From Asticcacaulis biprosthecium C19 (lineage in GTDB: Bacteria; Pseudomonadota; Alphaproteobacteria; Caulobacterales; Caulobacteraceae), in the NCBI RefSeq assembly GCF_000204015.1, contig NZ_GL883076.1:62001-126000 (forward strand): a stretch of 64,000 nucleotides of DNA, written 5' to 3'. How positions within the stretch are numbered: position 1 is the first letter of the stretch; every line of letters begins with the position of its first letter. Below the pieces are notes generated by a model. It had not been told where the DNA came from and searched no databases. It was given only the letters and a program-made list of their open reading frames with translations. The translations under genes were made by a program, and so were the position numbers. This document shows positions 2,744-17,277 of this stretch, one piece after another.

Positions 2744-2772
2744 GGCAGGGCTCCATTTGAAGGTTTGAGACA

Positions 2773-2798
2773 CCTTCCCCCTCCCTGCCCATTTCTTT
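2773..2798 (-). promoter_or_regulatory. G-tract leader motif before ardB
   Basis: On the minus strand an A-rich stretch (AAAGAAAT) is followed by G runs (GGGCAGGGAGGGGG), ending 30 nt before the ardB start. It is one of seven similar elements in the 2.7-16 kb block; see findings. Confidence 0.5.
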
Positions 2799-2914
2799 AA
2801 ATCGCCGGCACCACCCAGCGGAGCACCTCGCCCGCCGCGCAATGACCCGGACACGCTCCCTCGCGGCACAAACACCTTGCAGGAGCACCACAGTATCAAA
2901 ATGTAAGAGGAATA

Positions 2915-2945
2915 ATGGTCACCCTTGGGGGGCAAGGGTGACCAT
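2915..2945. repeat. Perfect 13-bp inverted repeat with GGGGG loop
   Basis: ATGGTCACCCTTG (2915-2927) and CAAGGGTGACCAT (2933-2945) are exact reverse complements around five Gs. No T-tract follows on either strand, so it is not a classic terminator. It lies about 170 bp upstream of ardB and could be a protein-binding site or a strong RNA hairpin. Confidence 0.8.
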
Positions 2946-3354
2946 CTGAACTCTGCCGGTTTCGGGGGGGTGAATCCGGGGAGAACCAAACGCTAGCTCA
3001 CCTTCGTGGCTACATCAAAGCCATATGCCGTCAATTCGGTCACAATACCGTTAGAAGACATGGGTTTTGGGGAGGAACACCTCACTGTCCCTCCCCTCAC
3101 CGAACACTTGCGCATACCCGGAGAAGAGCGGCCCGTGTCAAGTTCTTGCCTCAGAAGCCAGATGAGCCTGATTTTCGGAATATGTCACGTCCTCGCCGTC
3201 AGGACCGCGTTAGGGATCGAGCCCGAAGGGTGGAGACCCGACCTTCCGGGGCTCCATCGCAGACGACGAGCCCGGCGGCCGACGCAGTCGGACGCAACGC
3301 CCACCCTGCCTTCGCCAGGTTGGAAACCGGCTTTCGGTATGATATAAATTCCAA

Positions 3355-3603
3355 ATGGCAGACACCAACAACACCTTTGATATTGAGACCGGCACCACGC
3401 TCAATCAACTGATCAAGCGGCTTGGCGGTTTGCATGAATGTCAAAGACTGGGCTTCGTGTTCGAAGACGAAAAGGGCGTTATGTCTCCTTCAGCGGCCGG
3501 CTTTGCCTATCTGATGTTCGTCGTCGCCCGTGACATTACCGATCCCGCCGAAGCGTTCGCTGCGGGATACCAAGCCGCCCTCGATGAAATGAACCCCCTC
3601 TAA
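3355..3603 (+). CDS. Small hypothetical protein
   Basis: The 82-aa product is well balanced in composition (TFDIETGTTLNQLIKRLGGL at the start, then a YLMFVVARDITDPAEAFAAG helix) and is followed by a bidirectional terminator. No family is recognised. It is a soluble, acidic, mostly helical protein and the only rightward gene in this block. The ribosome-binding site is weak. Its function is unknown. Confidence 0.5.
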   Translation: MADTNNTFDIETGTTLNQLIKRLGGLHECQRLGFVFEDEKGVMSPSAAGFAYLMFVVARDITDPAEAFAAGYQAALDEMNPL

Positions 3604-3632
3604 GAGGCGTCTGCCCGCAACATCTGCAGAAA

Positions 3633-3662
3633 ATTGGCTCCCGAGGTTTCCCGAGAGCCAAT
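3633..3662. terminator. Bidirectional terminator between convergent genes
   Basis: ATTGGCTC (3633-3640) pairs with GAGCCAAT (3655-3662) between the stop codons of the converging genes ending at 3603 and 3685. The A/T flanks suit termination in both directions. Confidence 0.6.
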
Positions 3663-3684
3663 ACCTAAATAGGGCAGAGCAGGT

Positions 3685-4443
3685 TTACGCTAACGCCTGC
3701 CTCTCCTTCGCCAGCCGGATCGCCAGAACCGCCGCCTTGTATTCGGCAAATCCCCTCTCGTCGGCCAGGTCAGAGACCTCAGCCACCTGTGTGCAAGCTG
3801 CGCGAATATCCGCCGCCGTCACCTCGTCGACCGCGACACCAAGCTCCGGATCGGTTTCAATTATGCCCGGCAACTGACACCGCACAGCGTCCTCGGATAA
3901 CCGAAGCAACGAATGAACGGCGAAGGTCGCGAACACTTCCCCCGGCTGTGCATCGTCCTCCGTCCGGAAATCGTTGAGGATATCGTCCGTGCTTTTAAAG
4001 CGAACCTCGCCGGCGGTAATCGCCATGGCCGCGCCGCCGAACCCATCCCGCCGCATCTTCGTGCAGGTATAGGAGGTCACAACCTCGATACGGTTCAGAA
4101 CCGGCGACCGCTTGACGATGTCCTGCAGCACGAACTCATAGGACTTCATACTTAGATCGAGCTGAACCTCGTCGCCGTCGGCAAGCCCCTGCCATTCGTC
4201 CAGCTTCACCGCTACCAGATCCAGCGCTAAACTTCCAATGCCCTGGCTGGCCGAAAAAGCTGCCCGCAACTCACCCAGAGGCATTTCCAAGGTGTCGTTG
4301 GGCGAACCGCATGACGAAAGGAAGACGGTCTCACCTTCGTCGTCTTCATCGAAAATTCGTGCCAGCAGGTAACGCTCCAACGGCGTCATATCCGCCTTCG
4401 GAATTGAGGTTTGGACGACGGTGGGCGAGGCATAGTCTGTCAT
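3685..4443 (-). CDS. Conserved plasmid hypothetical protein
   Basis: The 252-aa soluble acidic protein begins MTDYASPTVVQTSIPKADMT. The start at 4443 is preceded by AGGAGA at good spacing; the open frame upstream is the Arg-rich read-through of the leader. The N-terminal part has a TPLERYLLARIFDEDDEG segment. The rest is rich in charged helices, ending in an AEYKAAVLAIRLAKERQ helix. No catalytic motif is seen. It belongs to the leftward backbone block with its own G-tract leader, which suggests a role in plasmid establishment rather than metabolism. The function is unknown. Confidence 0.7.
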   Translation of the reverse strand: MTDYASPTVVQTSIPKADMTPLERYLLARIFDEDDEGETVFLSSCGSPNDTLEMPLGELRAAFSASQGIGSLALDLVAVKLDEWQGLADGDEVQLDLSMKSYEFVLQDIVKRSPVLNRIEVVTSYTCTKMRRDGFGGAAMAITAGEVRFKSTDDILNDFRTEDDAQPGEVFATFAVHSLLRLSEDAVRCQLPGIIETDPELGVAVDEVTAADIRAACTQVAEVSDLADERGFAEYKAAVLAIRLAKERQALA

Positions 4444-4470
4444 GGGCTTTCTCCTGAAGCGAAATCTACG

Positions 4471-4497
4471 CCCTCCACTCCCTGCCCTTTTCCTTTC
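4471..4497 (-). promoter_or_regulatory. G-tract leader motif before the 252-aa hypothetical
   Basis: The minus strand reads GAAAGGAAAAGGGCAGGGAG, then TGGAGGG, 28 nt before the start at 4443. It overlaps the 3' end of the nuclease gene. It is one of the seven related leader elements. Confidence 0.5.
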
Positions 4498-5347
4498 AAT
4501 CGACCGGCCGCAGTCCCGCACAATCCGGATAGGTCGTGCAACCGAAGAACCGCTCGCCTTGATGGCCACCCTGTTTCGCAATCCTCAATGTCATCGGCGA
4601 TGCGCAGAGGGGACATTCCACCCCTTCCCCAACCCGGGCCGGCAGTCGATCGAGTGTCAGATTGCCACCAGGCAACGCATCGCGCCCCTGTTTCAGCAGG
4701 TCCCGAAGCCTCTGACCGTTGTAAAGCCAGATGCTCTTGTCCTCGGCAAAGTCGCCGGCCGCCTTGGTGAACACGCCCGACGTTACGACATAGGCGCCTA
4801 CGGCACCCTCGGCGTGCATCACACCGTACAGCGCCCGCACGGTCTCGACGTCGACGGCCTTGGCGCGCCAATGCTTGGCCTGGACGAGGAACTTCTGCTC
4901 GCCGCGGTGCAGGACCACGTCTATTCCGCCGTCGGCTCCTTCTGGCGTCAACTGGGCGTCGAAGCCATGCTTGGTGAAGGCGTGAGCGACGATTCGCTCG
5001 AAGTCGGCCCAAGATATTGACGCCAGGACCTCGCTCGACCCCGCCACATCGGCCAGCTTACGGACCCGTCGTTTCTCGAACCGGCGAACCAGCCATAACA
5101 GCCCGGACATGCCGAGTACGAAAGGGATCAGGTATTGAAACACGAGCGCCAGAGCCCGCAAAACAGTGGCGGTTGCCGCGTCCGCAGCCGCCGTTTCCGC
5201 CGACCCCGCCCCCACGGCCACCGTCTTCATGGCGAAGTAATGCAGGACAAGATAGGCGATGATGCCAACCGGCAGAGTGATAAAGGGTGGAACGACGCTA
5301 AGCGCGCGCACCCAATCCGCGAGATCGGGCGATTTACGTCTGGCCAT
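4496..5347 (-). CDS. Membrane-anchored Mrr-like restriction endonuclease with topoisomerase-type zinc finger
   Basis: The 283-aa protein has two N-terminal membrane helices (about residues 17-40 and 61-88) and then a basic linker. An Mrr_cat nuclease domain follows (about 108-225), with the PD-(D/E)xK-type residues D143 in GADGGIDVVL and Q156-A-K158 in FLVQAKHW. A C-terminal C4 zinc finger (C245, C248, C270, C276) resembles those of topoisomerase I. Mrr_cat proteins cleave DNA, often modified DNA. Anchoring at the membrane would place the activity where DNA enters or leaves the cell. It lies among anti-restriction genes. Activity and target are inferred. Confidence 0.8.
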   Translation of the reverse strand: MARRKSPDLADWVRALSVVPPFITLPVGIIAYLVLHYFAMKTVAVGAGSAETAAADAATATVLRALALVFQYLIPFVLGMSGLLWLVRRFEKRRVRKLADVAGSSEVLASISWADFERIVAHAFTKHGFDAQLTPEGADGGIDVVLHRGEQKFLVQAKHWRAKAVDVETVRALYGVMHAEGAVGAYVVTSGVFTKAAGDFAEDKSIWLYNGQRLRDLLKQGRDALPGGNLTLDRLPARVGEGVECPLCASPMTLRIAKQGGHQGERFFGCTTYPDCAGLRPVD

Positions 5348-5438
5348 TTGAATACCTGTGAGAGAAGGTCGATGTGGCGAAGGTGAGAGACTCCGCCAGA
5401 CGACAAACTAGCCACGCATCAGAAATTGTGAAGCGATA

Positions 5439-5735
5439 TCATGCGCTTGGCAGCCGGATTTTCAATTCGCCGCCGGCGCCGAACATCGAGCGATGCGATT
5501 TGAGGCGGGACTGCTGGCTGACCAGGGACAAAATGGCGACGCCAGTGCTAATCGCAGGCTGGGGTGCAAATTCCGGGGTCACCTCGATATGCCGGCCCGT
5601 CGATGTCCACGCCGTCCATTTCAAACCGTAGGACGTCATCCGCCGATATCGTTTGTAAACCGTGCCGTCCTCCCGGACCGCATGTTCGATTTCGACGTTC
5701 GTGCCGCCTTTGTAGAGTGCGATTGCCTTGGCCAT
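5439..5735 (-). CDS. Small hypothetical protein
   Basis: The 98-aa product begins MAKAIALYKGGTNVEIEHAV and contains YKRYRRMTSYGLKWTAW, a basic, beta-rich composition. No family is recognised. It is supported as real by its position between a strong terminator (5803-5828) and its own G-tract leader, and by sensible composition over its full length. It may be a nucleic-acid-binding accessory protein, but this is only a guess. Confidence 0.5.
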   Translation of the reverse strand: MAKAIALYKGGTNVEIEHAVREDGTVYKRYRRMTSYGLKWTAWTSTGRHIEVTPEFAPQPAISTGVAILSLVSQQSRLKSHRSMFGAGGELKIRLPSA

Positions 5736-5767
5736 TTCCGATCTCCGATGAAACTCATCGACCGGCG

Positions 5768-5789
5768 CCCTCCCCCTTCCTTTTCCCCA
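5768..5789 (-). promoter_or_regulatory. G-tract leader motif before the 98-aa gene
   Basis: The minus strand reads ATGGGGAAAAGGAAGGGGGA then GGG, 33 nt before the start at 5735 and just after the terminator of the upstream gene. The position after a terminator suggests that each gene in the block has its own transcript. Confidence 0.5.
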
Positions 5790-5802
5790 TTGCGCGATGC
5801 AA

Positions 5803-5828
5803 AAAATACCCCAGGCCGAAACCTGGGG
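5803..5828 (-). terminator. Rho-independent terminator after the DUF2493 gene
   Basis: On the minus strand the hairpin CCCCAGG-TTTCGG-CCTGGGG is followed by TATTTTTT. It starts about 10 nt beyond the stop codon of the gene ending at 5838. Confidence 0.85.
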
Positions 5829-5837
5829 CTGACGCTG

Positions 5838-6761
5838 CTATTTCTTCGGCGTGACCTGCATGGTGCGGATGCCTTTTTCGCGGGCCTTTTGACCGATATT
5901 GGCGGCAGGCCCAAACGGGCGGTGCTCTTCCTCGGTGACAGGCTCCAGCGTACATTCCAGGGTCAGCACCAGGACCGGATCAAGTAACAACAGATCGTCA
6001 TTGGCCTTGAAGGGCGCTGCGGCTTTGAATTTGTCGAAATTGGCCTTGGACAGGATGGTCTTGATCTTCTTGTCACGCGCCCATTTGAGGGCCAGTTGTT
6101 CGGCGCCGAGATTGCCGGTTGTCGCCAGTTGCATGTTCGGGAATTGGGATAGCGCCCAGTTCAAGGCGTCATAGATGCGATTGGCGTCATTCACGCGGTT
6201 GGCTTTCGGTGCACCGCGGAATACGACGACCTCGGTGCCAGGATCGGCCAAGCCTTGTTCACGTCGATCCTTCGCGCGCAGGGCTTCCTTCACTTCGATC
6301 TGAGCATAGGTCGTCGCGTGATTTTTCGCCGAACCGCGCCACGGGGTCCAGACTTCACCCGTTTGGGCGGTATAGTTTTCATTGGCGGCGTCGCGCATGA
6401 CCTCCATGATCATCACTGCGGCCTCGCCTCGGTTGAAGCTGCGCGTGGCGTCCTGAAGTTCGACATCCTTGATCTCGCTGCCATCGAAGTCGCGGATCAG
6501 CCGGCGCATGTCATCGTGAGAGCGATCCGCTTCGCGCTGGATCCGCAGGATGGCGCTGTGCAAGCCACCGATAAGACCTTCCATGATGATCGGCAGATGG
6601 TCTTCCAGGGCGGTGTTCAGAAAGACGTCGAGGACTTCATTGGTAACGGTCAGGCCGAGGTGTTCGATTTCAGCCTGGGCGGGATAGGGCATTTCGTGAG
6701 AGGCAAGCGTGCAGGCGGCGTCATAGCGGGAAAGGCCGAAGGAAGGAGAGGATATGTTCAT
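5838..6761 (-). CDS. DUF2493 (SLOG/YspA-like) domain protein
   Basis: The 307-aa protein has a long helical N-terminal half and a C-terminal DUF2493 domain (from about residue 175). That domain shows the VVVFRGAPKANRVNDANRIY start, the DALNWALSQFPNMQLATTGN segment and GAEQLALKWARDKKI. DUF2493 is a Rossmann-like SLOG domain thought to bind nucleotides or nucleotide-derived ligands, and it is frequent on alphaproteobacterial plasmids. Here it follows the structured element 6847-6908 and ends in a strong terminator. Its biochemical role is not known. Confidence 0.8.
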   Translation of the reverse strand: MNISSPSFGLSRYDAACTLASHEMPYPAQAEIEHLGLTVTNEVLDVFLNTALEDHLPIIMEGLIGGLHSAILRIQREADRSHDDMRRLIRDFDGSEIKDVELQDATRSFNRGEAAVMIMEVMRDAANENYTAQTGEVWTPWRGSAKNHATTYAQIEVKEALRAKDRREQGLADPGTEVVVFRGAPKANRVNDANRIYDALNWALSQFPNMQLATTGNLGAEQLALKWARDKKIKTILSKANFDKFKAAAPFKANDDLLLLDPVLVLTLECTLEPVTEEEHRPFGPAANIGQKAREKGIRTMQVTPKK

Positions 6762-6846
6762 GGCGTGTGACTTTCGAAGGTGTAAGAGAACCGATTTCTC
6801 GGAGAGGCCGCCGTTGGCCTTGCCTCTGCACCACGACCGCCACGGA

Positions 6847-6908
6847 CCGATTTTCGGGCAATGGGCGCGCTTGCGCGCTCGTCTCGACCCTTGCCCGCAA
6901 AAAATCGG
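6847..6908. repeat. Nested inverted repeat, candidate single-strand promoter or structured RNA
   Basis: CCGATTTTCGGGCAA (6847-6861) pairs with TTGCCCG...AAAATCGG (6891-6908), a 15-bp stem with a 3-nt bulge. The loop holds a second hairpin, GCGCGC-TT-GCGCGC (6865-6878). It lies 86-147 bp upstream of the DUF2493 start. In F-like plasmids such folded elements act as promoters on the incoming single strand; that role here is inference. Confidence 0.55.
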
Positions 6909-7395
6909 CGCTGTGGCAGTGGTTGCAGGATAAAAGGCGAGACCAACGGCTTTTCACCGGGCTCTTTTCGTTTCGTCACGCTTCCGATCGTCACCCGCCG
7001 AAACCGAACCGCCTCGGCCATTCCCGCTGTGACGGAAGCCGGTTCCTTACAAAAATCCCGCGCCGGCCGGCCGCTTCACCTGGTCGTTCGTTCAATGAAG
7101 GCACGCCGAAACAACACGCCCGCCGTCAAGCAGTCATCAAAGGACTGACCGGAGGAATACTGGTATCCTGCCAACCAGCTGAAGGGGCTGTCGAACACAT
7201 GCAGCCACCCGCCACGACACCGGCAATGGTCATCGTCGGCCCTACGCCACCGCCAAACCGAAGCCTGCCACGGTCTTGACTTGGACGGGACCCGCCCATA
7301 AGTCATCTTCGCCGTCTGAGGTGTGAGAGCCCGCGGCGGCGGTTAATGGAAAAGATCCCGCGAGGTTCTTCTCCGTCGTTTTTGGCCAAAGAGCG

Positions 7396-7421
7396 AAAGG
7401 GCGGCGTCAAGCCGCCCTTTT
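7396..7421. terminator. Hairpin terminator downstream of the ArdC-like gene
   Basis: AAAGGGCGGC (7396-7405) and GCCGCCCTTT (7411-7420) form a perfect 10-bp stem with loop GTCAA. It lies about 80 nt after the stop of the leftward gene ending at 7502. T residues follow the stem on the plus strand, and the stem itself ends in TTT on the minus strand. Confidence 0.6.
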
Positions 7422-7501
7422 ACCAAAGGTCTTCCGCCAAGGTGCAGGCGCAGGCTTCAGCACGCAGCCAGCTCGTCACAAGGACCTGGCACCCCAAGAC
7501 A

Positions 7502-8404
7502 TCACCCCGCGAGGGGCAACGTCGACAAATCTTCCAAGCTTTGGCCGCCGTGGCGGTATTTGAGGATCATGTCACATGCTAATTGCGCCTTTCCAGCCGC
7601 CTTCAGCAGTTCGTTCGGTCGATCCTTCAAAAGCTCTGCCCAATAGCCGAGATATGCAATGTGGTCCTGGAAGACCGACTGTGATGGATTTATACCGAGG
7701 TGAAGCGATGTCAGATGCGACGTCAACTCGGCCACCAGCTCTTCCCGGGCGTAGTCCTCCCGGCCTTCATAGACGGCAAATCGGTCCAGGCGGCTCTTCG
7801 CGCCAGTGGCATGGCCAAACTCATGAAGGAGCGTCGTGACGTAGTATTCGTCATTGGCAAAAGCCTCCCGCGGCGGCATCCGGATGATATCTTCCGCCAC
7901 GACGTAGCAGGCCATATTGCCTCCATGCGTGACCGGCACCGGGAAATTCGCCATGATGCCGGCGATGTCCTGCGCCAGCGGCTCCATAGCGTCGGTCGGC
8001 GCAGTCGATGGCTTGAAGAGCTCTGGCAAACCATCGATCTGGTCAGCGTTGAAAACACTATAGGTCTTGAGAAAGCGCAGGACGCGATCATCACCTTTGT
8101 CTTCCGCCTCGCCCTCGATAGTCCGGGTCTTGTAGAGGATGGCAGGGGACGCTTTTTCGCCCTTGCGCACGTTGCCGCCCAGGTCCTTGGCCTGATTGAA
8201 TGTCAGCCAATAGGCACTGCCAAAACCGCGCGTCGCCTGCAGCATCGACAACAGGATGGCGTTCATCCCGCTGAAGGCCTCGCCGGTGGAGCGCAGCGGA
8301 AACCCCGGCCGGGCACCGTTGGCCCAAGGCTGCCGCCAGGGTGCGACGCCCTTGTCCAGTTCGATGATGATCGTGTCGATGATGGCGTCGAGTGCGGTAT
8401 TCAT
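7502..8404 (-). CDS. ardC: ArdC-like anti-restriction protein (ssDNA-binding domain plus zincin metallopeptidase domain)
   Basis: The 300-aa protein has the N-terminal ArcN/ssDNA-binding domain of ArdC (residues 1-125: APWRQPW, RGFGSAYWLTFNQAKDLGG, VRKGEKASPAILYKT). A zincin-like metallopeptidase domain follows, with HEFGH at 194-198 and the downstream acidic EELVAE segment (221-226). ArdC of plasmid RSA/R388 binds single-stranded DNA and aids conjugation into restricting recipients. The zinc ligands are complete, so a protease role is possible. The gene is preceded by a G-tract leader and follows the giant helicase gene in the same direction. Confidence 0.88.
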   Translation of the reverse strand: MNTALDAIIDTIIIELDKGVAPWRQPWANGARPGFPLRSTGEAFSGMNAILLSMLQATRGFGSAYWLTFNQAKDLGGNVRKGEKASPAILYKTRTIEGEAEDKGDDRVLRFLKTYSVFNADQIDGLPELFKPSTAPTDAMEPLAQDIAGIMANFPVPVTHGGNMACYVVAEDIIRMPPREAFANDEYYVTTLLHEFGHATGAKSRLDRFAVYEGREDYAREELVAELTSHLTSLHLGINPSQSVFQDHIAYLGYWAELLKDRPNELLKAAGKAQLACDMILKYRHGGQSLEDLSTLPLAG

Positions 8405-8448
8405 TGGAAATCTCCTGCTTTCACCCGATCATTCGGGCTCGCAGGAGA

Positions 8449-8471
8449 CCTCCCTTCCCTCTTCTTTCGCC
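8449..8471 (-). promoter_or_regulatory. G-tract leader motif before ardC
   Basis: The minus strand reads GGCGAAAGAAGAGGGAAGGG then AGG, 45 nt before the ardC start. The A-rich half is nearly identical to the copies at 12779-12807 and 14976-15009. Confidence 0.55.
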
Positions 8472-8487
8472 GTACCCAACCGCCCGA

Positions 8488-11400
8488 TCAGGCGTTGAGC
8501 ACCAAGTCCTGCGCTGGATAGGACTTCAGCACGGCCCCCATCACGGACATGTCGCCGACGGGCAGGAAAACCCGGGCGGTGTAATTGATAATCTCAACGA
8601 AGCAGCCGAGGTCACGCAAACGCCTGTACTCGTTCGTATTGCCGAAGACCTCCAAACGGTGCCTGTCCATGACCTTCGAGCGCTTGAGATTGAGGTTGCC
8701 TGCCAGCTTGACGGTGCCGACATTGCGCATCACCAGATCGTGGGCGCCCAAGGGACTGGCGATTTCGCGCTTGGCGTCCGATACCCCCAGCACGTCGAGC
8801 AGTTTCAGGGCTTCCGCTTCCGACATGGTCCGGCCGAGCCAGCGCTTGCCGTCCGGCGCCCGCAAACGCTTCACATAGCAGGACTTCGACGGCAGGTTTT
8901 TCCAGATCGGCAGCAAGAGACCGGTGACGAGATTGAGTTGAGTATGAACGAACGGATCGAGCCCGTCGATTTCTGCCTGCCAAAGGCTGCGCCAGTTCGC
9001 TTCTTCGATGGGTTCCCAGTTGCTTTCAGCGAACAGATCGTCGCGCACCAGGTCCTGCTTTGTCGGCCGATGTAACCGGATCGCCGGGATCAGGCCATCG
9101 TCGTCGTCGGTCGTGGTGACACCGTTTTCCAGCAGGGCGACGCGCTTCGATTTCGGATTGTAGACGAAGTCATATTTGCTACGGGGCCAGTTCTCGAACA
9201 TCCACTGAAGATCATCGAGCCTCGTCATCTTCCGCTGTTCCTTGACGTTGAACTTCAACAGCCTGGTCTCGGCGCCCGTCGGATCGGTGCGGATCACTTG
9301 GTCACTAACGAGATCGACCTGGTGCGGCACAAGGTCTTCAACGCCCTTATCGAGCGCGCCGGCAGCTTCCGCACGCTCCAAGATCGCCTTCAAACGACCT
9401 TCGAACTCGTCGAATACAGCGTCCTGGTCGGAAATACGCAGCGCCAGAAGCCGGTTCAGGAAGGTATGCAAGGGCGGCAAATCCTCGCTCGATAGCAGGC
9501 ACCCGCTGTCGCCGCGAAGTTTCAGCGCCGTTTTACGCTCGAAGTCGCTGATGCCCATGCTCGGGATCTTGTCCTGGTACATGGCCTGATAAAAGGCCAA
9601 CAGGGCGCGGCGTGCATAATCGTTTTCCAGGTTGTCCTCCGGCCGGAACAATCCGCTGCCGGCGCCGCGGCGCTCCCCGGTACTCAACGCCCCAAGACTG
9701 TGGAGGCGTCTGGCGATTGTCGAGAGAAACCGCTTCTCGCCCTTGATATTGGTTGTCACAGGCCGGAAGCAGGGCGCACAGACTTGATTGGAGCGATGCG
9801 TTCGCCCGATGCCCTGGATCGCCGTGTCAGCGCGCCAGCCGGATTCGACGAGGTAGTGGCGGCGGGGCTTCTGGTTGGCGCAGGCGCGGTCAGCATGATA
9901 GCTCCGCCCGGTCCCGCCCGCCTGGCTGAACACGAGAATGTCTTTGCGGCCGCCCATAAAGTCGTCGGTTTCGGATTTGGCGGCGCTGGCGGAGCGTTTA
10001 TCCAGAACGAACTTGTCGTCCTTCAGGATCACACGGCGGCCGCGGCCGGTGATTTCAGCTATGCGCTCGGGCCCGAAATGGTGGATCAGACCGTCAAGAA
10101 CACCCGGCACACCAGGTAGGGTTGCCAGATTGAGGATCAGCTCGTCACGCAGGGCGAGCGCCTCCTGGCTATGAACGGCATTGCCTTCGCTATCCGTCAT
10201 CGGCACGAGCTTGATATTGCCGTTATCGTCTTCGGTCTCAACGAAACAGGTCGTCGGGAACGAGTGCTGCAAATACTCGGTGACGGTATCACGCGGCGTC
10301 AGGTCGATATGCAGGTCGTTGTACTCCGCTGGAGACACGGCTTCCAGCCGACGTTCCATGACCGCCTGGTTCGTCGACACCAGTTGAACCACGCAGGCCA
10401 AACCTGCCTCGACGTCTCCCTCGATAGCTCGGATCAACGTCGGGGTCTTGAATCCACAAAGAAGCGCGTTGAAAAACCGTTGACTGGTACTGGCAAAGGC
10501 CGATTTGGCGGCGCCCTTGGCCTGACCCGATGCGGTCTTGCCCTCCCCGTCGACTACGCCGATGGCCTCCAGAGCCTTGTCGAGATTGGCATGGATGATT
10601 TCGAAGGCCTCGGCCCAGGCGTCCCAGATTTCGATATTGGCCGGCGTCAGCTCGTGCAGCAACGGATCGATCGTCAAACCGTCGAAGCTGAGCATCCGGG
10701 CGACATAGAGCCCTTGCGCCTTCAATTCGCGCGCAATCAGTTCCATGACCGCAACGCCGCCATCGTCCGCCGCTTTCAGAAATTCCTCCCGGGTCAGGAA
10801 CGGGGCCTCGGTCGATCCCCACAGTCCGAGACGGCTGGCATAGGCCAGGTTTTCCGGGGTAGTGGCGCCGGTTGCCGACACGTACATGATCCGGGCATTC
10901 GGCAACCGGTATTGCAGCATCAACCCGGCCAGGCCTTGCTGCGACGGCTTCTTGGCGCCGCGATTGCCTTTGCCGCCGGCAGCGTTCGCCATTTCGTGGG
11001 CTTCGTCGAAGACAATAGCGCCGTCAAAATCGGCCCCCAACCAATCGACGATCTGGTCGAGACGGGATTTCTTTTCCTGACGAGCGGCCACCCGCAAAGT
11101 GGCGTAGGTGCTGAACAGGATGCCCTTGTCCATACGGATCGGCTGCCCAAGCTTGTAGGCGCTCTGGCAAACGAGATCGTTGGCCGCGCCGCCGATGGCC
11201 GACCAGTCTCGTCGCGCGTCTTCCAGCAGCTCGTCGTTCTTGGAAATCCAGACGGCCTTTGGGCGTCCGTTTGCTACATTGTCGGCGATCACCGCGGATA
11301 TCTGGCGCCCCTTGCCGACACCCGTACCGTCACCGAGAAAGAAACCCTTGCGAAGCTGAAAGCCGCCCTCGTGGGTCTCGGGCACCGCTGTGTAACTGGT

Positions 11401-12735
11401 CTTTTGCTCATTCAGCGCCCAAAAGCCTGGCAGAATTTCAGAATGGGCCTGGCCGGCATAGACGACGGTTTCCATCTGGGCGTCAGACAGTCCACCCGCC
11501 AGCACCATAGGGGGCAGTTTCGGCTGGTATGTTGGCCGCGGCACGGCGACAGAACCCATGGCGGAGGATTCAACAAGTGAAGACGGATGGGCGAACGAGG
11601 GTGCAAGCTGCATCCGCGAGACGCGATAGGCGCTGAACAGGCCGACATCGTCACCGATCCCAGCCCAATCGATTGTCGTATAGGTCGCCAGGGCGGTCGT
11701 TTGGAGGAAGCATAGTCGGGTCGAGACGGTTGGTCGTGCTCCTGCGTTACCCGAAAAAGCCGCCACAGAGCCCGCAGGGCGGAAAATCCGTGCCTTGGCT
11801 GTCAAGCGAGCGGGAACGGCCGAAATTGCCTCCAGCGCCTGTGCCAGGCTCTCGGCGGCCATTGTCGAAGCGTTACCTTCCGTTGGCGCGACGCGATCGA
11901 AGACAAAAAGGCCGGTTTCGACCCCTGTGCCATGTTTACCGAAGGCATTTTCCGGCAGGATTATTGTGGCGCGAATAGCAAACAGGCGTGACAGGCGCCC
12001 CAACGCCGGCGACTCGAAGAAGGAAGCTGGCACGATTGCCGAGACGCGTCCTCCATCGGCTACACATTTTCCGGCGCTGAGCAGATGCGCCTCGATGTCG
12101 GTGAAGGGAGGGTTCATGACGACAGCGTCGAACTGACCTGCGGTTTGGACCCGATCGTGCAGCGTCTTCCCGTCAAAACGGCTGCGGTCGCAAGCTGCAA
12201 ATGCTGCGTCCAGAAGTTCCGCACGGGTCGCAGCGATTTCATTCAGGTGCAGCCTGGCGCCGCACACCTCCGCCATCACGGCCAGCATCCCGGTGCCGGC
12301 GGACGGTTCAAGGACAAAATCCCCAGGTCTGATCTGTGCCGCCAGGATCGCCAGGGCCGCAAGTTCGAGCGGTGTGGAGAATTGGTCAAGCATGACCTGC
12401 TCCTCGGACCGACGCGAATGGGTCAGGCCAAGGACGGAGATTTTCGCCAGCGCCTCAACCACGTCCAGAGGCGCATCTTCGATCCGCGACACCTGGCACG
12501 CGACCTTGCGAACCTGCAGAACCTGCGCGACTTCGATGGCCTCATAGGCGTCTTTCCAGTTCCACACACCTTCGGTGTCGGTGCCCATGAAGGAAAAACT
12601 CATGGCATCACGTACTGTGCCGCGATCGAGCGCCTTGCCGCGCATCAGGCTGGGTTGCAGTGCTCGCGCCGCGCCCAACAGGGCCGCCGATTTGCTGAGG
12701 GTGGTTGCGCCGAAAAGGGAAAGGGACTTGTTCAT
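8488..12735 (-). CDS. Strawberry-notch-family helicase fused to an N-terminal DNA methyltransferase
   Basis: The 1415-aa protein begins with a SAM-dependent methyltransferase domain: a VLEPSAGTGMLAVMAE SAM loop near residue 140 and NPPF near 207. The SBNO (strawberry notch) helicase region follows: Walker A-like GDGTGVGKGRQISAV near 468, DEAH box (FDEAHEM) near 576, and a C-terminal helicase part with QGIGRTHRSNQ. Such giant proteins are typical of conjugative plasmids and ICEs of proteobacteria. They are proposed to modify or protect transferred DNA and to remodel protein-DNA complexes. A G-tract leader precedes it, and it is the largest gene of the backbone. Its exact role is unproven. Confidence 0.88.
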   Translation of the reverse strand: MNKSLSLFGATTLSKSAALLGAARALQPSLMRGKALDRGTVRDAMSFSFMGTDTEGVWNWKDAYEAIEVAQVLQVRKVACQVSRIEDAPLDVVEALAKISVLGLTHSRRSEEQVMLDQFSTPLELAALAILAAQIRPGDFVLEPSAGTGMLAVMAEVCGARLHLNEIAATRAELLDAAFAACDRSRFDGKTLHDRVQTAGQFDAVVMNPPFTDIEAHLLSAGKCVADGGRVSAIVPASFFESPALGRLSRLFAIRATIILPENAFGKHGTGVETGLFVFDRVAPTEGNASTMAAESLAQALEAISAVPARLTAKARIFRPAGSVAAFSGNAGARPTVSTRLCFLQTTALATYTTIDWAGIGDDVGLFSAYRVSRMQLAPSFAHPSSLVESSAMGSVAVPRPTYQPKLPPMVLAGGLSDAQMETVVYAGQAHSEILPGFWALNEQKTSYTAVPETHEGGFQLRKGFFLGDGTGVGKGRQISAVIADNVANGRPKAVWISKNDELLEDARRDWSAIGGAANDLVCQSAYKLGQPIRMDKGILFSTYATLRVAARQEKKSRLDQIVDWLGADFDGAIVFDEAHEMANAAGGKGNRGAKKPSQQGLAGLMLQYRLPNARIMYVSATGATTPENLAYASRLGLWGSTEAPFLTREEFLKAADDGGVAVMELIARELKAQGLYVARMLSFDGLTIDPLLHELTPANIEIWDAWAEAFEIIHANLDKALEAIGVVDGEGKTASGQAKGAAKSAFASTSQRFFNALLCGFKTPTLIRAIEGDVEAGLACVVQLVSTNQAVMERRLEAVSPAEYNDLHIDLTPRDTVTEYLQHSFPTTCFVETEDDNGNIKLVPMTDSEGNAVHSQEALALRDELILNLATLPGVPGVLDGLIHHFGPERIAEITGRGRRVILKDDKFVLDKRSASAAKSETDDFMGGRKDILVFSQAGGTGRSYHADRACANQKPRRHYLVESGWRADTAIQGIGRTHRSNQVCAPCFRPVTTNIKGEKRFLSTIARRLHSLGALSTGERRGAGSGLFRPEDNLENDYARRALLAFYQAMYQDKIPSMGISDFERKTALKLRGDSGCLLSSEDLPPLHTFLNRLLALRISDQDAVFDEFEGRLKAILERAEAAGALDKGVEDLVPHQVDLVSDQVIRTDPTGAETRLLKFNVKEQRKMTRLDDLQWMFENWPRSKYDFVYNPKSKRVALLENGVTTTDDDDGLIPAIRLHRPTKQDLVRDDLFAESNWEPIEEANWRSLWQAEIDGLDPFVHTQLNLVTGLLLPIWKNLPSKSCYVKRLRAPDGKRWLGRTMSEAEALKLLDVLGVSDAKREIASPLGAHDLVMRNVGTVKLAGNLNLKRSKVMDRHRLEVFGNTNEYRRLRDLGCFVEIINYTARVFLPVGDMSVMGAVLKSYPAQDLVLNA

Positions 12736-12778
12736 GGCTGACTCCGTCTGGTCTTGGGCTTTGCCCGGTTGAGATCAG

Positions 12779-12807
12779 CCTTCCCCTCCCTCCCCTCTTC
12801 TTTCGCC
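12779..12807 (-). promoter_or_regulatory. G-tract leader motif before the helicase/methyltransferase gene
   Basis: The minus strand reads GGCGAAAGAAGAGGGGAGGG then AGGGGAAGG, 44 nt before the start at 12735 and just after a terminator hairpin. It has three adjacent G runs. Confidence 0.55.
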
Positions 12808-12832
12808 AACCAGGCCATTCGAACGCCGGCAT

Positions 12833-12863
12833 GAAAATGGCCCCCGCCAGAACAGCGAGGGCC
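12833..12863 (-). terminator. Terminator after the ParB-domain gene
   Basis: On the minus strand GGCCCTCGC and GCGGGGGCC form a stem with one mismatch and a 7-nt loop, followed by ATTTTC. It lies 15 nt beyond the stop codon at 12878. Confidence 0.6.
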
Positions 12864-12877
12864 GGATAGTTCAGGGC

Positions 12878-14929
12878 CTATGCTGCCTCTGACAGTTGTT
12901 CATCGCCTCCAGTCACAGCGTCATTTGGGACAGGCTCCTCTTCGGGTTCCAATTCCTCGTCGCCTTCCAACTCAACGTTTCCTGCGCCCGCGGCATCGTC
13001 CGAATCCGCGTCCGCCGCATCATCTTCCGCCTCCAGTTCCGCGTTGTTGTCGAAGCTGAGCGCCGCAGGCACCCATTGATGGGCAACCCCCTGCTCCGCG
13101 ATATAGCTGGCCAGCGCACCCTTTTTCATCGTCCCCAGGGTGTCGCCCTCACAGCCCATACGGTCGGCAAAGCCGAGCAACTGCTTCTTCGAGCACTTTG
13201 CGTAGAAATCAGCGCTCGGGAACCAGTGGGTCCGGATGTCGTGGTCGATCTCCTCGGCGACCTCCTGCATCAGCGCCCGTGCCTTCTTCCGGATCATATT
13301 GGTCGCGTCCTCCGTGATCCACAGACTCGCCGCGGTCGTGAGCGCGAGAAGCTCCTGAATTTGCCCAAATGCCAGGCTGGAAACCCACGCGTAGGGCCGC
13401 AGTCCCGTCTCGGCATAGGCATCCTTGAATTCCAGCAAGCGCTGAACCAGGCCCTGGTCCAGACCTTCTACTGCGCCGTAATTGGCAGCCTGGATATTGC
13501 GCGTGTAGCTGACCTTCAGGGCCCGGTCGTCGATGTAGCTACCCTGCTGCGAGAGAACCACCTGTTCGAACATGCTGCAGACCTGCAGTTTGAGCGCCGC
13601 TGAGAACGAGCCGGCCAAGGAACACTGTAAACCGCGCACGGCCATCTCAGTTGCCAGGCGGTGAAAGGCATTGCTCTCGCCGTCGGTATCGATCAGGATT
13701 TTTCGTTCCGGAACGGTATCAAAGACACGCGGCTCTGCCTTTGCAGTGGCATCAAGCGCTGCACGTTTGGACTCCTCCCAGGCGCTGATGTCGTCGACGT
13801 AGGTGTGAAACTTGAATTCCAGCAGGGTTCTGTCGCCGGGGACGATGAGGACGGCCCGGACCGGCATCGGGGCCAGACGAGCAACTTCCTGGTCGAACAG
13901 GGCCTTGCAGAACGGCGCCAGTCCGGTGATCTCAAACACGCCATCTTCCGGCACCGGCGGCAAAGCTTCGCGGACCGTGGCCAATTTGGCCTGGGCCTCG
14001 GCAAGAGCCTCCCGTTCCTCCTTGCTTCGGCTGTACCGATAGCCAGGGTCGCCGAATTCTTCGGGAAGTTCCGCGTCGCAGTCGGGATTGATCAAGGTCG
14101 TTATACCCAATCCCTCGAACAGGTCCCGCAACGGTTGGAGCTTTTCGGCCCATAGCGAAGCGGCAATGGGCATGTCCAGGCACATGTCGGGCAACTCGTT
14201 CAGGAGGTCGGTTGAAACCTTTCCGCCGGCTTCAACGTAGGCGCCTAAGCCTACGATCTTCATCATCGACGAGGCGGCCGACAAACCTTCCTGATCAAGG
14301 TAGTCACGGACTTGGCCGACGCTCAGGTGTCCATACTGCCGGCCCTTGCTGATCACCGCTCCCTGCTCAGCCAGCGTTGGAATGCGCGCGATCATTTTGA
14401 GAGTGTTGAAGTCGATGAACTTGGTCTTGAATGCCGTGATGGCGTCGAGGTGGACGCGCGAGACGACCTGAAACTTCTTCACTTCGGCCAGGTCCATGCA
14501 TAATCCTCGCGCGATCTTGTCGGCCGAGAATTTCTTTTCAGCCATGGCGCGGATGGCCAGGATCTTGTCGGCGGGACCGACCGGCAGACGGGCGCCGTTG
14601 GCGGTCACAAGAGCGGCGGCGATAGCTTCCTGGGTTTCGCAAAGCTCGGTCGTGATTTCGAGATCATTGGTAATCAGGCCCTGTTCCAGGAGCATTCGGA
14701 AGCCCAACAAGCGACGACGACCGTCCAGCGCCATGTAGGGTTTTTCCTTTTTGCCGCCTTTACGGACCAGGAGCGGAAGCAATTGGCCGGCGGCATCGGG
14801 AGCCAGACTCTGAGCGAGGTCGGGGATCAATTCGTCGGCCGGCTCCAGAAATCGTGGGTTTTCCGGCGCGATGTCGAGATCCTTCAAGGCGACGACGACG
14901 CGGGACAGCTGGGATGCTTGCGGGTTCAT
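12878..14929 (-). CDS. Large ParB/Spo0J N-terminal-domain plasmid protein
   Basis: The 683-aa protein starts with a ParB-like CTPase/nuclease fold: ENPRFLE near residue 19, LLPLLVRKGGKKEKPYMALD, then GRRRLLGFRMLLEQG. A helix-turn-helix region (DKIARGLCMDLAEVKKFQVV, about 150) follows, then a long C-terminal part unlike chromosomal ParB. The tail (about 620-683) is strongly acidic, with E/D runs. Plasmids of this type carry such a protein besides the true ParAB locus. Proposed roles are nucleoid-like DNA binding or protecting entering DNA. It is a separate transcription unit with its own leader and terminator. Confidence 0.8.
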   Translation of the reverse strand: MNPQASQLSRVVVALKDLDIAPENPRFLEPADELIPDLAQSLAPDAAGQLLPLLVRKGGKKEKPYMALDGRRRLLGFRMLLEQGLITNDLEITTELCETQEAIAAALVTANGARLPVGPADKILAIRAMAEKKFSADKIARGLCMDLAEVKKFQVVSRVHLDAITAFKTKFIDFNTLKMIARIPTLAEQGAVISKGRQYGHLSVGQVRDYLDQEGLSAASSMMKIVGLGAYVEAGGKVSTDLLNELPDMCLDMPIAASLWAEKLQPLRDLFEGLGITTLINPDCDAELPEEFGDPGYRYSRSKEEREALAEAQAKLATVREALPPVPEDGVFEITGLAPFCKALFDQEVARLAPMPVRAVLIVPGDRTLLEFKFHTYVDDISAWEESKRAALDATAKAEPRVFDTVPERKILIDTDGESNAFHRLATEMAVRGLQCSLAGSFSAALKLQVCSMFEQVVLSQQGSYIDDRALKVSYTRNIQAANYGAVEGLDQGLVQRLLEFKDAYAETGLRPYAWVSSLAFGQIQELLALTTAASLWITEDATNMIRKKARALMQEVAEEIDHDIRTHWFPSADFYAKCSKKQLLGFADRMGCEGDTLGTMKKGALASYIAEQGVAHQWVPAALSFDNNAELEAEDDAADADSDDAAGAGNVELEGDEELEPEEEPVPNDAVTGGDEQLSEAA

Positions 14930-14962
14930 TGGTAGTCTCCATCAACTGGGTGAGGCCTATCC

Positions 14963-15901
14963 TCAGCGACCAGTCACCCTCCCCCTTCCCTCCCCCTCTT
15001 CTTTTGCCCGCCGGCCCATGACCTGTGCCATTTGGTTGAAGTCGCGAAACCGTTCTGGCGGCAAATGCACCGTCGCCATTAAGCCAAGTGAAACAAGGAT
15101 TTCGCGCAGGGCTACGGCTGCCCACTCACCTTCCACGCCTCGGTCAGCCGCAATAAGGATTGAGCGCACACAGGCCGGAGGCCGGAAGGCACGCAGGTTA
15201 CGAATGCCAAGAAGCGCATGGGCGGGAAGGCCAAAATAATCCGAGGCGGACAGCGCCGTCATGACGCCTTCCGCCACAAGCATTTCATAGGCTGGGTCAT
15301 CAAGCTGGACAAGGCTTCCTGGCGGAACAACGCCGACGGTTTTGCGCGAGAGCTTCAGCTTGGCATCGCGGTCGCCGGTTGGATCGAGGTAGGTAAGCTC
15401 GACCGCCGTCGTTTGACCTTGTGGTGTTACGATCCGGCTCATAAGTGCTGGCCGGGTGAACCGGCTGTTGCGCTGATAGGCAGCCACGCGACACGCCGGA
15501 TTATGCAGAACACTCTTTATCCTGACCAGGTCGCGCGCAATCGCTCGGTATTCGTGGAGATACCTGGCACTTAAGGTCTCAGGCAACGGGACGCCGGCGC
15601 TCCAAAGATCTTCGGCGACGCCTCGTTTTTGTCCGTCCGACGGGCACGAAGGCTGCAGTATCGATGGTCCTCTCGCACCGGGGTAGCCTGCCCTGTCGAT
15701 AAGGCCCCTCTTCCTTAGATCATCCAGGATTTCAAAGGCCGTAGCGCCGCCGAAGCTGAAAGCAACAACGCGGCCTGTGCGACCTATGACCAATGAAGCG
15801 GACCGATCAGCCCGGCTATGGCCAGGCGCCGGGATAGAGGCCCTCAGACCGCCATTGTAAAGCTCGCCGCCTGTCGCACGGACGATTTGAACCAGGGACA
15901 T
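14963..15901 (-). CDS. Toprim-domain (primase-like, DUF7146-type) plasmid protein
   Basis: The 312-aa protein has the Toprim layout in its C-terminal half: LVAEGVMTALSAS (the Glu motif, near 210) and ILIAADRGVEGEWAAVALRE (the D-x-D region, near 250). The second acidic residue of D-x-D is replaced (DRG). The N-terminal part has PAPGHSRADRSASL, a segment shared by plasmid primase-like proteins. These are thought to be primase relatives used in plasmid replication or in completing the transferred strand. It is followed at 34 nt by the ParB-domain gene, whose leader motif overlaps its 3' end. Confidence 0.75.
   Translation of the reverse strand: MSLVQIVRATGGELYNGGLRASIPAPGHSRADRSASLVIGRTGRVVAFSFGGATAFEILDDLRKRGLIDRAGYPGARGPSILQPSCPSDGQKRGVAEDLWSAGVPLPETLSARYLHEYRAIARDLVRIKSVLHNPACRVAAYQRNSRFTRPALMSRIVTPQGQTTAVELTYLDPTGDRDAKLKLSRKTVGVVPPGSLVQLDDPAYEMLVAEGVMTALSASDYFGLPAHALLGIRNLRAFRPPACVRSILIAADRGVEGEWAAVALREILVSLGLMATVHLPPERFRDFNQMAQVMGRRAKEEGEGRGRVTGR
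14976..15009 (-). promoter_or_regulatory. G-tract leader motif before the ParB-domain gene
   Basis: The minus strand reads GGGCAAAAGAAGAGGGGGAG then GGAAGGGGGAGGGT, 47 nt before the start at 14929. The four G runs (5, 3, 5 and 3 Gs) with 1-2 nt loops fit the standard G-quadruplex pattern. It overlaps the 3' end of the Toprim gene, so it constrains that protein's C-terminus. Confidence 0.55.
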
Positions 15902-15930
15902 GTAACCTCCTACGCAAAATCTGCGCGGAA

Positions 15931-15956
15931 GCCTCGCCCTCGCCCCTTCTCCAACC
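15931..15956 (-). promoter_or_regulatory. G-tract leader motif (divergent copy) before the Toprim gene
   Basis: The minus strand reads GGTTGGAGAAGGGGCGAGGG then CGAGGC, 30 nt before the start at 15901. It is the weakest of the seven copies. Confidence 0.35.
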
Positions 15957-15985
15957 TGCCGTTTCGATGGATTGGAAAAGAGCTA

Positions 15986-17001: not shown

Positions 17002-17040
17002 GGGGCGTCCTCATCAAACCGCTTGAGCTACCCTATCGGG

Positions 17041-17183: not shown

Positions 17184-17277
17184 AAGGGCACCCTAGACGC
17201 CCGTGCAGAACCCTAGGGTTTGATAGGGTGCAGTACTTATCTACGCCGCTATTGCACTGGCAAGGGGAGGGGAGGCG

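Follow-up and report, generated by a model that had tools for sequence, protein, structure and literature searches.

The window considered here, a stretch of 64,000 nucleotides, represents half of a 128-kb contig that encodes a MOBF relaxase. The seven start codons at 2743, 4443, 5735, 8404, 12735, 14929 and 15901 are all present, all on the minus strand, and belong to the following genes:

2315..2743, minus strand: ArdB-type antirestriction protein (PF03230)
3685..4443, minus strand: 252-aa protein, no Pfam family
5439..5735, minus strand: 98-aa protein, no Pfam family
7502..8404, minus strand: ArdC antirestriction protein (ArdcN and MPTase-PolyVal)
8488..12735, minus strand: Strawberry-notch-type (SNO) helicase, 1415 aa (AAA_34, Helicase_C_4)
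12878..14929, minus strand: ParB-like protein, 683 aa (NCBIfam ParB/RepB matches are weak; relatives on plasmids carry a ParB annotation)
14963..15901, minus strand: Toprim/DUF7146 protein

The 252-aa protein has relatives in 77 plasmid records, five of which cover at least 80% of its length, while a search of PLSDB for near-identical DNA with 15 kb of the window returned no match. Relaxase and coupling-protein genes were identified, and the leader genes of the window's contig are transcribed toward the TrwC/MobF relaxase side, as are those on pASTEX02, an orientation that would fit a leading region for which the T-strand serves as template.

Each gene is preceded by a leader (about 55-110 nt in the family as a whole) that carries a purine/G tract in its 5′ part, continues into a predicted stem-loop and ends at the start codon:

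2744..2799, minus strand: leader of the ArdB gene; tract 2773-2798, then hairpin, Shine-Dalgarno sequence (SD) and spacer
4444..4501, minus strand: leader of the 252-aa gene; tract 4471-4497
5736..5795, minus strand: leader of the 98-aa gene; tract 5765-5793, with a terminator-like hairpin (5829-5808) directly before
8405..8477, minus strand: leader of the ArdC gene; tract 8448-8473, then a 13-pair stem around a 6-pair hairpin (folding z -4.9)
12736..12811, minus strand: leader of the SNO-helicase gene; tract 12775-12808, with a terminator-like hairpin (12863-12839) before
14930..15013, minus strand: leader of the ParB-like gene; tract 14973-15012, fitting the G-quadruplex pattern; P1/P2 stem-loop by comparison
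15902..15960, minus strand: leader of the toprim gene; weak copy without the core word; hairpin z -2.3

A blind scan of the 64 kb on both strands, for 24-mers with at least 22 purines and at least 12 G, gave seven clusters, of which six are the copies before 2743, 4443, 5735, 8404, 12735 and 14929, each on the same strand as its gene and separated from the start codon by 28-44 nt; twenty Markov simulations gave 0-2 purine/G clusters each (mean 0.6). The original prediction of a shared tract before seven genes is thus borne out strongly for six, which also contain the core word RGGNAGGG. The 15901 copy lacks this word and fails the scan; the toprim gene of another plasmid (L123) has a good copy. 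Among the window copies, the 13-mer GGCGAAAGAAGAG is exact in only two and one base off in a third, and taken alone it shows no over-representation (18 matches when three mismatches are allowed versus 23.6 expected). The two copies said to follow a terminator, those of 5735 and 12735, do so, with the hairpins listed above; a further terminator-like hairpin (2946-2914) lies about 115 nt before the tract of the 2743 gene.

Across alphaproteobacterial loci, the tract (consensus RRGRRRRAGG[A/G]AGGG) was found within 110 nt upstream of 185 among 1365 called genes, which amounts to 156 distinct tracts, compared to 1 of 1341 random stretches inside genes in sense and 3 of 1341 in antisense orientation. 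Gene starts in this count come from a home-made caller, which misses the toprim gene of the window, and the loci were picked by their SNO gene, so that neighbouring leaders are not independent. The leader genes include those for SNO helicases, ParB-like, ArdC, SSB-like, RadC and GcrA proteins, among others. The tract precedes 64 of 81 SNO, 33 of 47 ParB-like and 13 of 20 ArdC genes, while Rep (0/8), ParA (0/7), toprim (0/55) and DUF2493 (1/51) genes are mostly devoid of it. All 185 tracts lie on the strand of the query gene, versus 0 of 407 on the other, in a count that left the strand labels of L003-L007 (the rest of the contig, free of leader genes) in their original orientation instead of aligning them with the SNO strand. 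The motif is also directional: AAGGAAGGG occurs in 19 of the 156 tracts and its reverse in one. In three further named plasmids with annotated starts, the tract was present before six of seven ParB-like, SNO and ArdC genes, one of two toprim genes and none of 43 other genes; 52 of the 55 annotated genes entered this test (left out were two that are cut at the ends and one with a short upstream region), and its L122 leaders are very similar to those of L027, which served as a training row in the Caulobacterales SNO alignment. The check set beforehand by the original prediction, a search for the motif in related plasmids, therefore revealed enrichment ahead of homologous genes, and the proposal of a common regulatory signal is supported on this ground.

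The distribution has limits. None of the 13 viral-contig relatives of SNO with a findable start (15 loci) has a tract, nor does any of the 15 genes checked on an Agrobacterium pAt plasmid with related genes. The exact word GAAAGAAGAGGGRAGGGA (at most one mismatch) was found in six of 299 genomes of the order, including the own genome, and its reversed control in five, from which it follows that the signal is a degenerate motif with structure rather than a fixed word. A search of 58 genomes of the class, among them the own genome, for a combined tract-plus-loop pattern gave no match.

The structure of the leaders was investigated on hand-drawn models and chosen alignments, whose rows were selected before counting: 33 of 50 Caulobacterales-type SNO leaders (near-duplicates and divergent copies, e.g., L021, L022, L023, L031 and L093, were dropped by eye), 16 of 26 Rhodobacterales-type SNO leaders (ten dropped, most for failing to align), 25 of 29 distinct ParB-like leaders and 12 of 14 SSB leaders. 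With shuffle controls that ignore relatedness, SNO leaders are 93.5% paired, with 35 double-change cells compared to 15.4 after shuffling, and ParB-like leaders show 45 compared to 16.2, with nine of 12 pairs double-changed; in both families none of 500 shuffles was as good, and slid controls were far lower. Relative to their own shuffles the leaders fold with a mean z of -1.40 (n = 155), control upstream regions with -0.38 (n = 200) and the leader complements with -0.92, the sense strand being lower in 107 of 155. In P1 and P2 of the SNO leaders 36 cells are G-U and 10 are A-C, which places the constraint on the sense strand; in Rhodobacterales leaders, P2 most often contains three G-U pairs in a row.

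Covariance models were run on chosen loci (43 for R1, the ParB model, and R2, plus 36 more for R2). The SNO-leader model gave 57 matches at E ≤ 1 in 1.04 Mb, of which 18 are SNO leaders with high scores, including 15 training rows. Among the remaining 39, where about one is expected by chance, 32 end at the start of an open reading frame (chance 0.19), and genes unrelated to SNO are among them; none of the 57 fell in 13 stretches of a 2.4-Mb contig. In the window this model finds only the ArdC leader (8407-8467, E 0.076), and R1 finds only the ParB-like leader, which is itself a training row. The predicted stem-loops of the window SNO, ArdB, 252-aa and 98-aa leaders come from single-sequence folding, and five of the seven window leaders have folding z values between -0.9 and +1.2. 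Unsupervised RNAalifold on a MAFFT alignment of the Caulobacterales SNO set recovered P2 only, and on MAFFT alignments of radC and ArdC leaders it gave no structure. An alternative Caulobacterales hairpin was rejected: it covaries, but three double-changed pairs are nothing unusual (170 of 500 shuffles), and G-U cells are about as frequent in it as A-C cells (14 and 13). The RNA structure offered as one option by the original prediction is supported by covariation and by a covariance model that reaches across genes.

A pairing of the tract with the spacer before the AUG (P0), possible in the window ArdB leader (GGCAGGG/CCCTGCC), shows double changes in three of seven pairs among 16 Rhodobacterales leaders, and tracts pair with their own spacers at -9.01 versus -8.35 for spacers permuted over all leaders. 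Within gene families, however, own spacers do no better than permuted ones (best for ArdC, with 5 of 50 permutations as good), and P0 was not retained. The SD is unpaired at 0.49 in leaders and 0.40 in controls, i.e., no more hidden than in controls, so that a simple SD lock is not supported.

The idea of an unusual promoter fares poorly. No sigma-70-like (-35/-10-like) site lies in duplex DNA within 100 nt upstream of any window leader, and a LexA-type box precedes 17 of 26 Rhodobacterales-type SNO genes (15 at -142/-141 and two at -167) compared to one of 50 others. This box stands upstream of the tract at a near-fixed distance, which suggests that the tract is transcribed. A related reading is a single-stranded promoter of the Frpo/ssi type, in which the leader folds in the transferred strand and RNA polymerase starts on single-stranded DNA. 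The antirestriction, SSB-like and RadC gene content and the transcription toward the TrwC/MobF side in the window's contig and pASTEX02 both fit this, as does the report that leading regions carry their anti-defence gene families on the T-strand (PMC11541004). We consider it improbable: no -35/-10-like site was found in duplex DNA in the 100 nt upstream of the window leaders, no oriT was located, and the stem-loop abuts the SD, so that transcription beginning within it would yield hardly any leader. The excess of G-U over A-C in the SNO stems, with its triple G-U run in Rhodobacterales P2, also speaks against a hairpin in the template strand, because there G-U would become A-C.

Among the closest known systems are Frpo/ssi and EGeRS1. 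Like the leaders, the Frpo/ssi elements mark anti-defence genes of leading regions and depend on folding, but they are DNA promoters with -35/-10 in the folded strand, whereas the leaders lack such elements in duplex DNA and have G-U-containing stems on the sense strand that abut the SD (PMC11541004). EGeRS1, in the pLS20 family of Bacillus conjugative plasmids, is a conserved foldable region before several establishment genes, including ardC; it sits directly upstream of the ribosome-binding site and is reported to have no constitutive promoter, with its mode (single-stranded DNA or RNA) left undecided (PMC8708921). It resembles the leaders in that one foldable region is repeated ahead of establishment genes such as ardC, next to the ribosome-binding site, but it spans 400-600 bp with many inverted repeats and belongs to Firmicutes, in contrast to the Alphaproteobacteria leaders of about 55-110 nt with a tract and one bipartite stem-loop.

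Rfam 15 at gathering score gave no match in the window or in L008-L011, L020, L036, L041, L075, L076 and L090, and scans below threshold (window 2300-16500; L030 and L009) placed no family on any leader. The radC RNA motif (RF01754) is a candidate structured element near radC-type genes. STAXI is another, near antirestriction-type genes (PMC2864571); such gene contexts resemble those of the leaders, but no Rfam match was obtained at the scanned leaders. Among the matches listed in the open-licence PMC literature, no paper deals with these leaders.

Several readings of the tract itself were weighed. A G-quadruplex in mRNA or DNA is very unlikely: the 14976-15009 copy does fit the pattern, but the other six window leaders do not, and among 156 cases four runs of at least three G with short loops occur nine times in the tract and 36 times in the leader as a whole, so that the predicted folding is no conserved feature. 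We give equally little credence to a polar DNA motif for a translocase (KOPS/SRS-like, GGGNAGGG). The tract core resembles KOPS, all leader genes lie on one strand and GGGNAGGG is polar on the window's contig, but RGGNAGGG outside leaders is not polar in SNO loci (305 plus versus 307 minus), GGGNAGGG occurs in 35 of 156 tracts and the reversed word in 27, and the position of the tract is tied to the start codons of particular genes. Less remote, though still doubtful, is a role as ribosome standby site or 5′ mRNA stabiliser (STAB-SD-like), in which the tract binds the 16S tail and either holds the 30S subunit close by or protects the 5′ end. Searches of the own assembly for the exact 3′ end of the 16S rRNA found nothing, and an assumed tail sequence was used; with it, tracts pair at about -13.5 kcal/mol, compared to -7.4 for the local SD and -11.9 for shuffled tracts. 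Reversed tracts, however, pair equally well (-13.8 versus -13.6), although the motif is directional. Polypurine and STAB-SD stabilisers have been described in Bacillus (PMC7509114).

A small RNA with a C-rich loop may instead target the leaders, encoded by the plasmid in Asticcacaulis and by the host (GsrN-like) elsewhere, a reading that we judge about as doubtful as the ribosomal one. The window contains one such element:

2914..2979, minus strand: two-hairpin C-loop RNA candidate (hairpin 1 2956-2979, hairpin 2 2914-2946)

Its hairpin 1 has a C7 loop closed by UUC/GAA, and hairpin 2 a C-rich loop and, here, a terminator-like form. Hairpin 1 (C7-C11 loop, UUC/GAA or UC/GA closing) followed by hairpin 2 occurs in the window, pASTEX02, L020, L021, L142, L145, L146 and L147. 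Hairpin 2 is 98.1% paired, with eight of 14 pairs double-changed (0/500 shuffles), and the RNA adjoins ArdB or 252-aa leader genes in the window, L151 and L152. For predicted loop pairing the window leaders rank 2, 5, 8, 11, 12 and 14 of 54 upstream regions (15901 unranked) and the L021 leaders 1 and 2 of 24. However, G content largely accounts for these ranks, the best-ranked region of the window does not belong to a leader, and on pASTEX02, where the RNA lies on the strand opposite the leaders, only three of five leaders are in the top 14 of 41. In the studied loci and 25 Asticcacaulis genomes the RNA was found only in Asticcacaulis; the eight pattern matches in the genus include two to something other than this hairpin and one to a lone hairpin on a 2.9-Mb contig, far from any tract, and L148 and L150 have no known leader-gene relative, save a weak ParB-like one in L148. 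In the same bacterial family, the six loop cytosines of Caulobacter GsrN are proposed to base-pair with G-rich targets, and this RNA activates katG through pairing with the katG leader (PMC5869019). GsrN and 6C-type RNAs thus share C-rich loops directed at G-rich mRNA sites, whereas the interaction here is a predicted one; the match of the window RNA to 6C is weak (E 3.7, 27.4 bits, under the gathering score of 47). The two-hairpin RNA stands as a candidate trans-acting partner of the leaders. Agrobacterium pAt1 has a ProQ/FinO gene upstream of ArdC, but its product was dropped as a candidate reader because that plasmid has no tracts before the 15 checked genes.

Taken together, the recurrence, position and strand of the tract, the covariation of stems in two gene families, which a third set supports, and the similarity of leaders across unrelated genes are demonstrated computationally, most clearly in Caulobacterales and Rhodobacterales. 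By its covarying stems the leader would qualify as a cis-regulatory structured RNA. We consider it likely that the tract forms the 5′ half of structured 5′-leader RNAs, a family that acts post-transcriptionally and marks the establishment and anti-defence genes which conjugative plasmids and plasmid-like elements carry in Alphaproteobacteria. In the proposed order, a directional purine tract is followed by a bipartite stem-loop (P1, internal loop, P2), the ribosome-binding site and the start codon, with a stem-loop sequence that varies between genes and an architecture that is kept. Such a leader would act as part of the mRNA, either on the initiation of translation or on the stability of the message: the stem-loop would hold the tract at a set place ahead of the ribosome-binding site and offer it to a shared trans-acting factor, be it an RNA-binding protein, a C-rich-loop small RNA or the 30S subunit. 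Scattered genes, some just behind a terminator, could thereby respond together, probably at plasmid entry or establishment; expression on entry into a recipient would fit the gene content and the layout beside the MOBF relaxase.

To our knowledge, the switching on of anti-restriction and similar genes after entry has been little studied in plasmids outside enterobacteria, and the shared leader points to a control switch of a kind so far undescribed in plasmid-like elements of Alphaproteobacteria. More tentatively, a dozen or so unrelated establishment and anti-defence genes might form a plasmid-wide post-transcriptional regulon, united by one leader family, read by a dedicated trans-acting RNA or protein (in Asticcacaulis, its own C-loop two-hairpin RNA) and switched together when the plasmid enters or settles. 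If true, this regulon would be the RNA-level counterpart of the single-stranded promoters of enterobacterial plasmids. The leader would provide a concrete layer of control that is not a promoter, and a portable signature for new establishment genes, of which the covariance model already flags unnamed ones. A further implication is that the establishment of incoming plasmids could be influenced by C-rich-loop small RNAs of plasmid or host origin.

The seven leftward genes with starts at 2743 to 15901 encode ArdB, a 252-aa and a 98-aa protein of unknown function, ArdC, a strawberry-notch-type (SNO) helicase, a 683-aa ParB-like protein and a toprim protein. All seven were originally described as sharing a purine/G tract; a strong copy precedes six of them (starts 2743, 4443, 5735, 8404, 12735 and 14929), while the copy before the toprim gene (15901) is weak. 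Besides these six copies, each 28-44 nt before the start codon, the minus strand of the window has no other strong purine/G cluster, and 20 simulated sequences gave 0-2 clusters each with both strands counted. Looser clusters occur in the rest of C1, the contig holding the window, none of them placed by eye like this before a start; under one rule there were 9 in window 2300-16500, 18 in all C1 and 36 in 400 kb from other contigs.

C1 (128,196 bp of a 5.4 Mb genome; the window covers positions 62001-126000) is probably a circular plasmid, since about 20 bases are repeated at its two ends. The SNO protein shares 98% identity with one from Asticcacaulis sp. AC460, and the following transfer genes were found:

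C1 51006-56978, minus strand: TrwC-type (MOBF) relaxase and TraD/TrwB-type coupling protein
Inside the window: TraC_F protein

The Asticcacaulis plasmid pASTEX02 has the same order of relaxase, coupling protein and leader genes, the latter transcribed towards the relaxase side. If oriT sits in the gap between the relaxase/coupling genes and the leader genes, a hypothetical place, the latter would form the leading region. An AbiEi/AbiEii toxin-antitoxin pair (49-1531, opposite strand) adjoins the ArdB end of the cluster, and AbiE-type genes also lie among the leader genes of locus L122. Read by eye, TGTGTGAAATGTCGAA-like units directly before the rep gene (18436-18800) are likely iterons and CAATATTG-like units before the ParA gene (17040-17260) a likely partition site. 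The word GGGNAGGG is polar along C1 (-58592 to 64944 in window-based coordinates), centred on the rep region: going rightwards from 17264 and round to -39116, it occurs 15 times on the plus and twice on the minus strand, and from -19556 to 14988 0 and 18 times, 8 of the 18 within leaders. This may be a gene strand effect or genuine replichore polarity; for the looser word RGGNAGGG the bias is smaller.

Recurrence was investigated in 80 loci retrieved from species genomes via the SNO family, the best 80 among the matches listed. An SNO start could be located in 76 of them, and inspection by eye shows the tract in nearly all of these, with a conserved stretch able to fold behind it. A numerical rule (a 20-mer, at most 110 nt before the start, that contains one GGG and no fewer than 18 purines, 9 G and 3 A) identified the tract at 64 of 81 SNO matches, fragments included, and at 185 of 1365 called genes, compared to 1/1341 (sense) and 3/1341 (antisense) random stretches inside genes, so that the predicted enrichment ahead of homologous genes in related plasmids was borne out. 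The other strand of upstream regions gave 31/1355, and the 110 nt after genes 103/1405, because the leader of the next gene often begins there. Families with the tract include SNO, ParB-like, ArdC, ArdB, the 252-aa and 98-aa proteins, an SSB-like protein, RadC, GcrA, DUF6878, DUF7007, a Mom-like protein, DUF5983 and DUF6927; under the same rule it is missing from Rep (0/8), ParA (0/7) and toprim (0/55) genes and present at 1/51 DUF2493 genes. In three more named plasmids with annotated starts, 7 of 52 genes carried it (SNO 2/2, ArdC 2/2, ParB-like 2/3, toprim 1/2) and 0 of the 43 remaining genes, RadC and SSB among these; the third ParB-like gene has a shorter tract by eye and a covariance model match exactly at its start (E 0.42). 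In Agrobacterium pAt1, relatives of leader genes lack the tract, and a ProQ/FinO-family gene lies shortly upstream of ArdC (L100, 34233-34691).

The RNA structure among the options first proposed is supported by covarying stems (P1 and P2). In 33 Caulobacterales SNO leaders, pairing reached 93.5% versus 86.9% in shuffled alignments, with 35 double-change cells versus 15.4 (0/500 shuffles), and fell to 41-59% when the partner was slid by 1-3 columns. Twenty-five ParB-like leaders, the window's included, had 85.1% of cells paired versus 72.2%, with double changes in 9/12 pairs and 45 cells versus 16.2 (0/500; slid 38-53%); for 16 Rhodobacterales SNO leaders the values were 83.7% and 80.6% (0/500; slid 26-57%). 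A second hairpin of the Caulobacterales SNO leaders (alignment columns 24-29 with 34-39) uses the 5′ arm of P1 as its own 3′ arm and also covaries (75.1% paired versus 64.2%; 27 cells versus 9.8, 0/500), with double changes in just 3 pairs (170/500 shuffles), so two mutually exclusive folds, as in a two-state switch, are possible. Sense-strand G-U cells outnumber A-C cells in P1/P2 (36 versus 10) but not in the second hairpin (14 versus 13). The post-tract part of 155 leaders has a mean folding z of -1.40, compared to -0.92 for the complement and -0.38 for 200 control upstream regions; taken singly, the window leaders give a less clear picture, with -4.9 for ArdC, -2.3 for toprim and values from -0.9 to +1.2 for the other five.

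A covariance model of SNO leaders (R2) was run on 43 sources selected from the loci (1.04 Mb), giving 57 matches at E<=1, of which 18 are high-scoring SNO leaders (15 of them training rows) and 0 fall in 13 stretches of the 2.4-Mb contig C2. The other 39 include two SNO leaders (L021, L022), and 32 end within -3 to +12 nt of the start of an ORF of at least 60 codons (chance 0.19), one of these on the other strand and another dependent on a GTG. Matched leaders comprise those of ParB-like, ArdC, SSB-like, RadC and DUF7007 genes and the window's ArdC copy. Conversely, the ParB-like model (R1) recovers two SNO leaders, from L021 and L022, at E about 1e-4. Because each model finds leaders of unrelated genes, the leaders look like a single RNA family distributed over non-homologous genes. 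Thirty-six further sources gave 10 R2 matches: SNO (L122, L008, L123), ArdC (L123, L008) and ParB-like (L123, L124) leaders, an L072 SNO leader match ending 18 nt before the start, and a pair of opposite-strand matches in L088 and L100 that may be chance.

The alternative of an unusual promoter found no support: within 100 nt upstream of any window leader there is no sigma-70-like site (region total 3 versus 3.1 expected). A LexA-type box lies upstream of 17/26 Rhodobacterales-type SNO genes (15 at -142 or -141, 2 at -167), mostly about 49 nt ahead of the tract, and of only 1/50 Caulobacterales-type ones, with 47 boxes in all SNO loci together. A regulated promoter at this box would put the tract inside the transcript, and SNO expression in Rhodobacterales-type elements may be SOS-linked. 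The loci with the box at a nearly fixed distance are L072, L075, L077, L078, L080-L083, L086-L089, L091 and L096-L099. Since terminator-like hairpins precede tracts (25/183 in the 90 nt before, versus 39/1160 at a comparable place in other genes), some leaders must have their own transcription start or depend on read-through.

As to how such an RNA would act, the motif has a direction (RRGRRRRAGG[A/G]AGGG in the best alignment of 166 leaders; AAGGAAGGG in 19/156 tracts, its reverse in 1), which favours a sequence-specific reader over plain purine content. Compared with other genes, the SD is not hidden to a greater extent, and the fold therefore seems to offer the tract rather than to lock the SD. 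The reader could be the 30S subunit, a protein that binds RNA, or a C-rich-loop small RNA; for the last of these one candidate was found:

Window 2914-2979, same strand as the leaders, between the 252-aa gene and the ArdB leader: potential RNA of two hairpins whose loops are C-rich

It recurs with altered yet paired stems in L020, L021, pASTEX02 (on the other strand), L142 and L145-L147; hairpin 2 is 98.1% paired with 8/14 pairs double-changed (0/500), and for hairpin 1 the comparison was by eye only. L151 and L152 carry the RNA directly upstream of the tract of the 252-aa gene, with ArdB adjoining, and in L148 and L150 it has no 252-aa/ArdB neighbours. For predicted pairing with the C-rich loop, window leaders rank 2, 5, 8, 11, 12 and 14 among 54 upstream regions, which is suggestive, though mostly a matter of G content. 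A lone C-loop hairpin of similar look occurs at L149 5408 (2.9-Mb contig of a sister genome), with no tract nearby. According to PMC5869019, the Caulobacter small RNA GsrN carries six cytosines in its loop and activates KatG by pairing with the katG leader.

Rfam gave no match at leaders in the scanned stretches. EGeRS1 of Bacillus pLS20 plasmids (PMC8708921) is the closest precedent in kind and Frpo, a promoter of leading regions in enterobacteria (PMC11541004), the closest by gene context. The leaders described here differ from both in size and architecture. In this reading they are shared structured leaders of establishment genes in the form of a compact RNA family, read by a putative factor.
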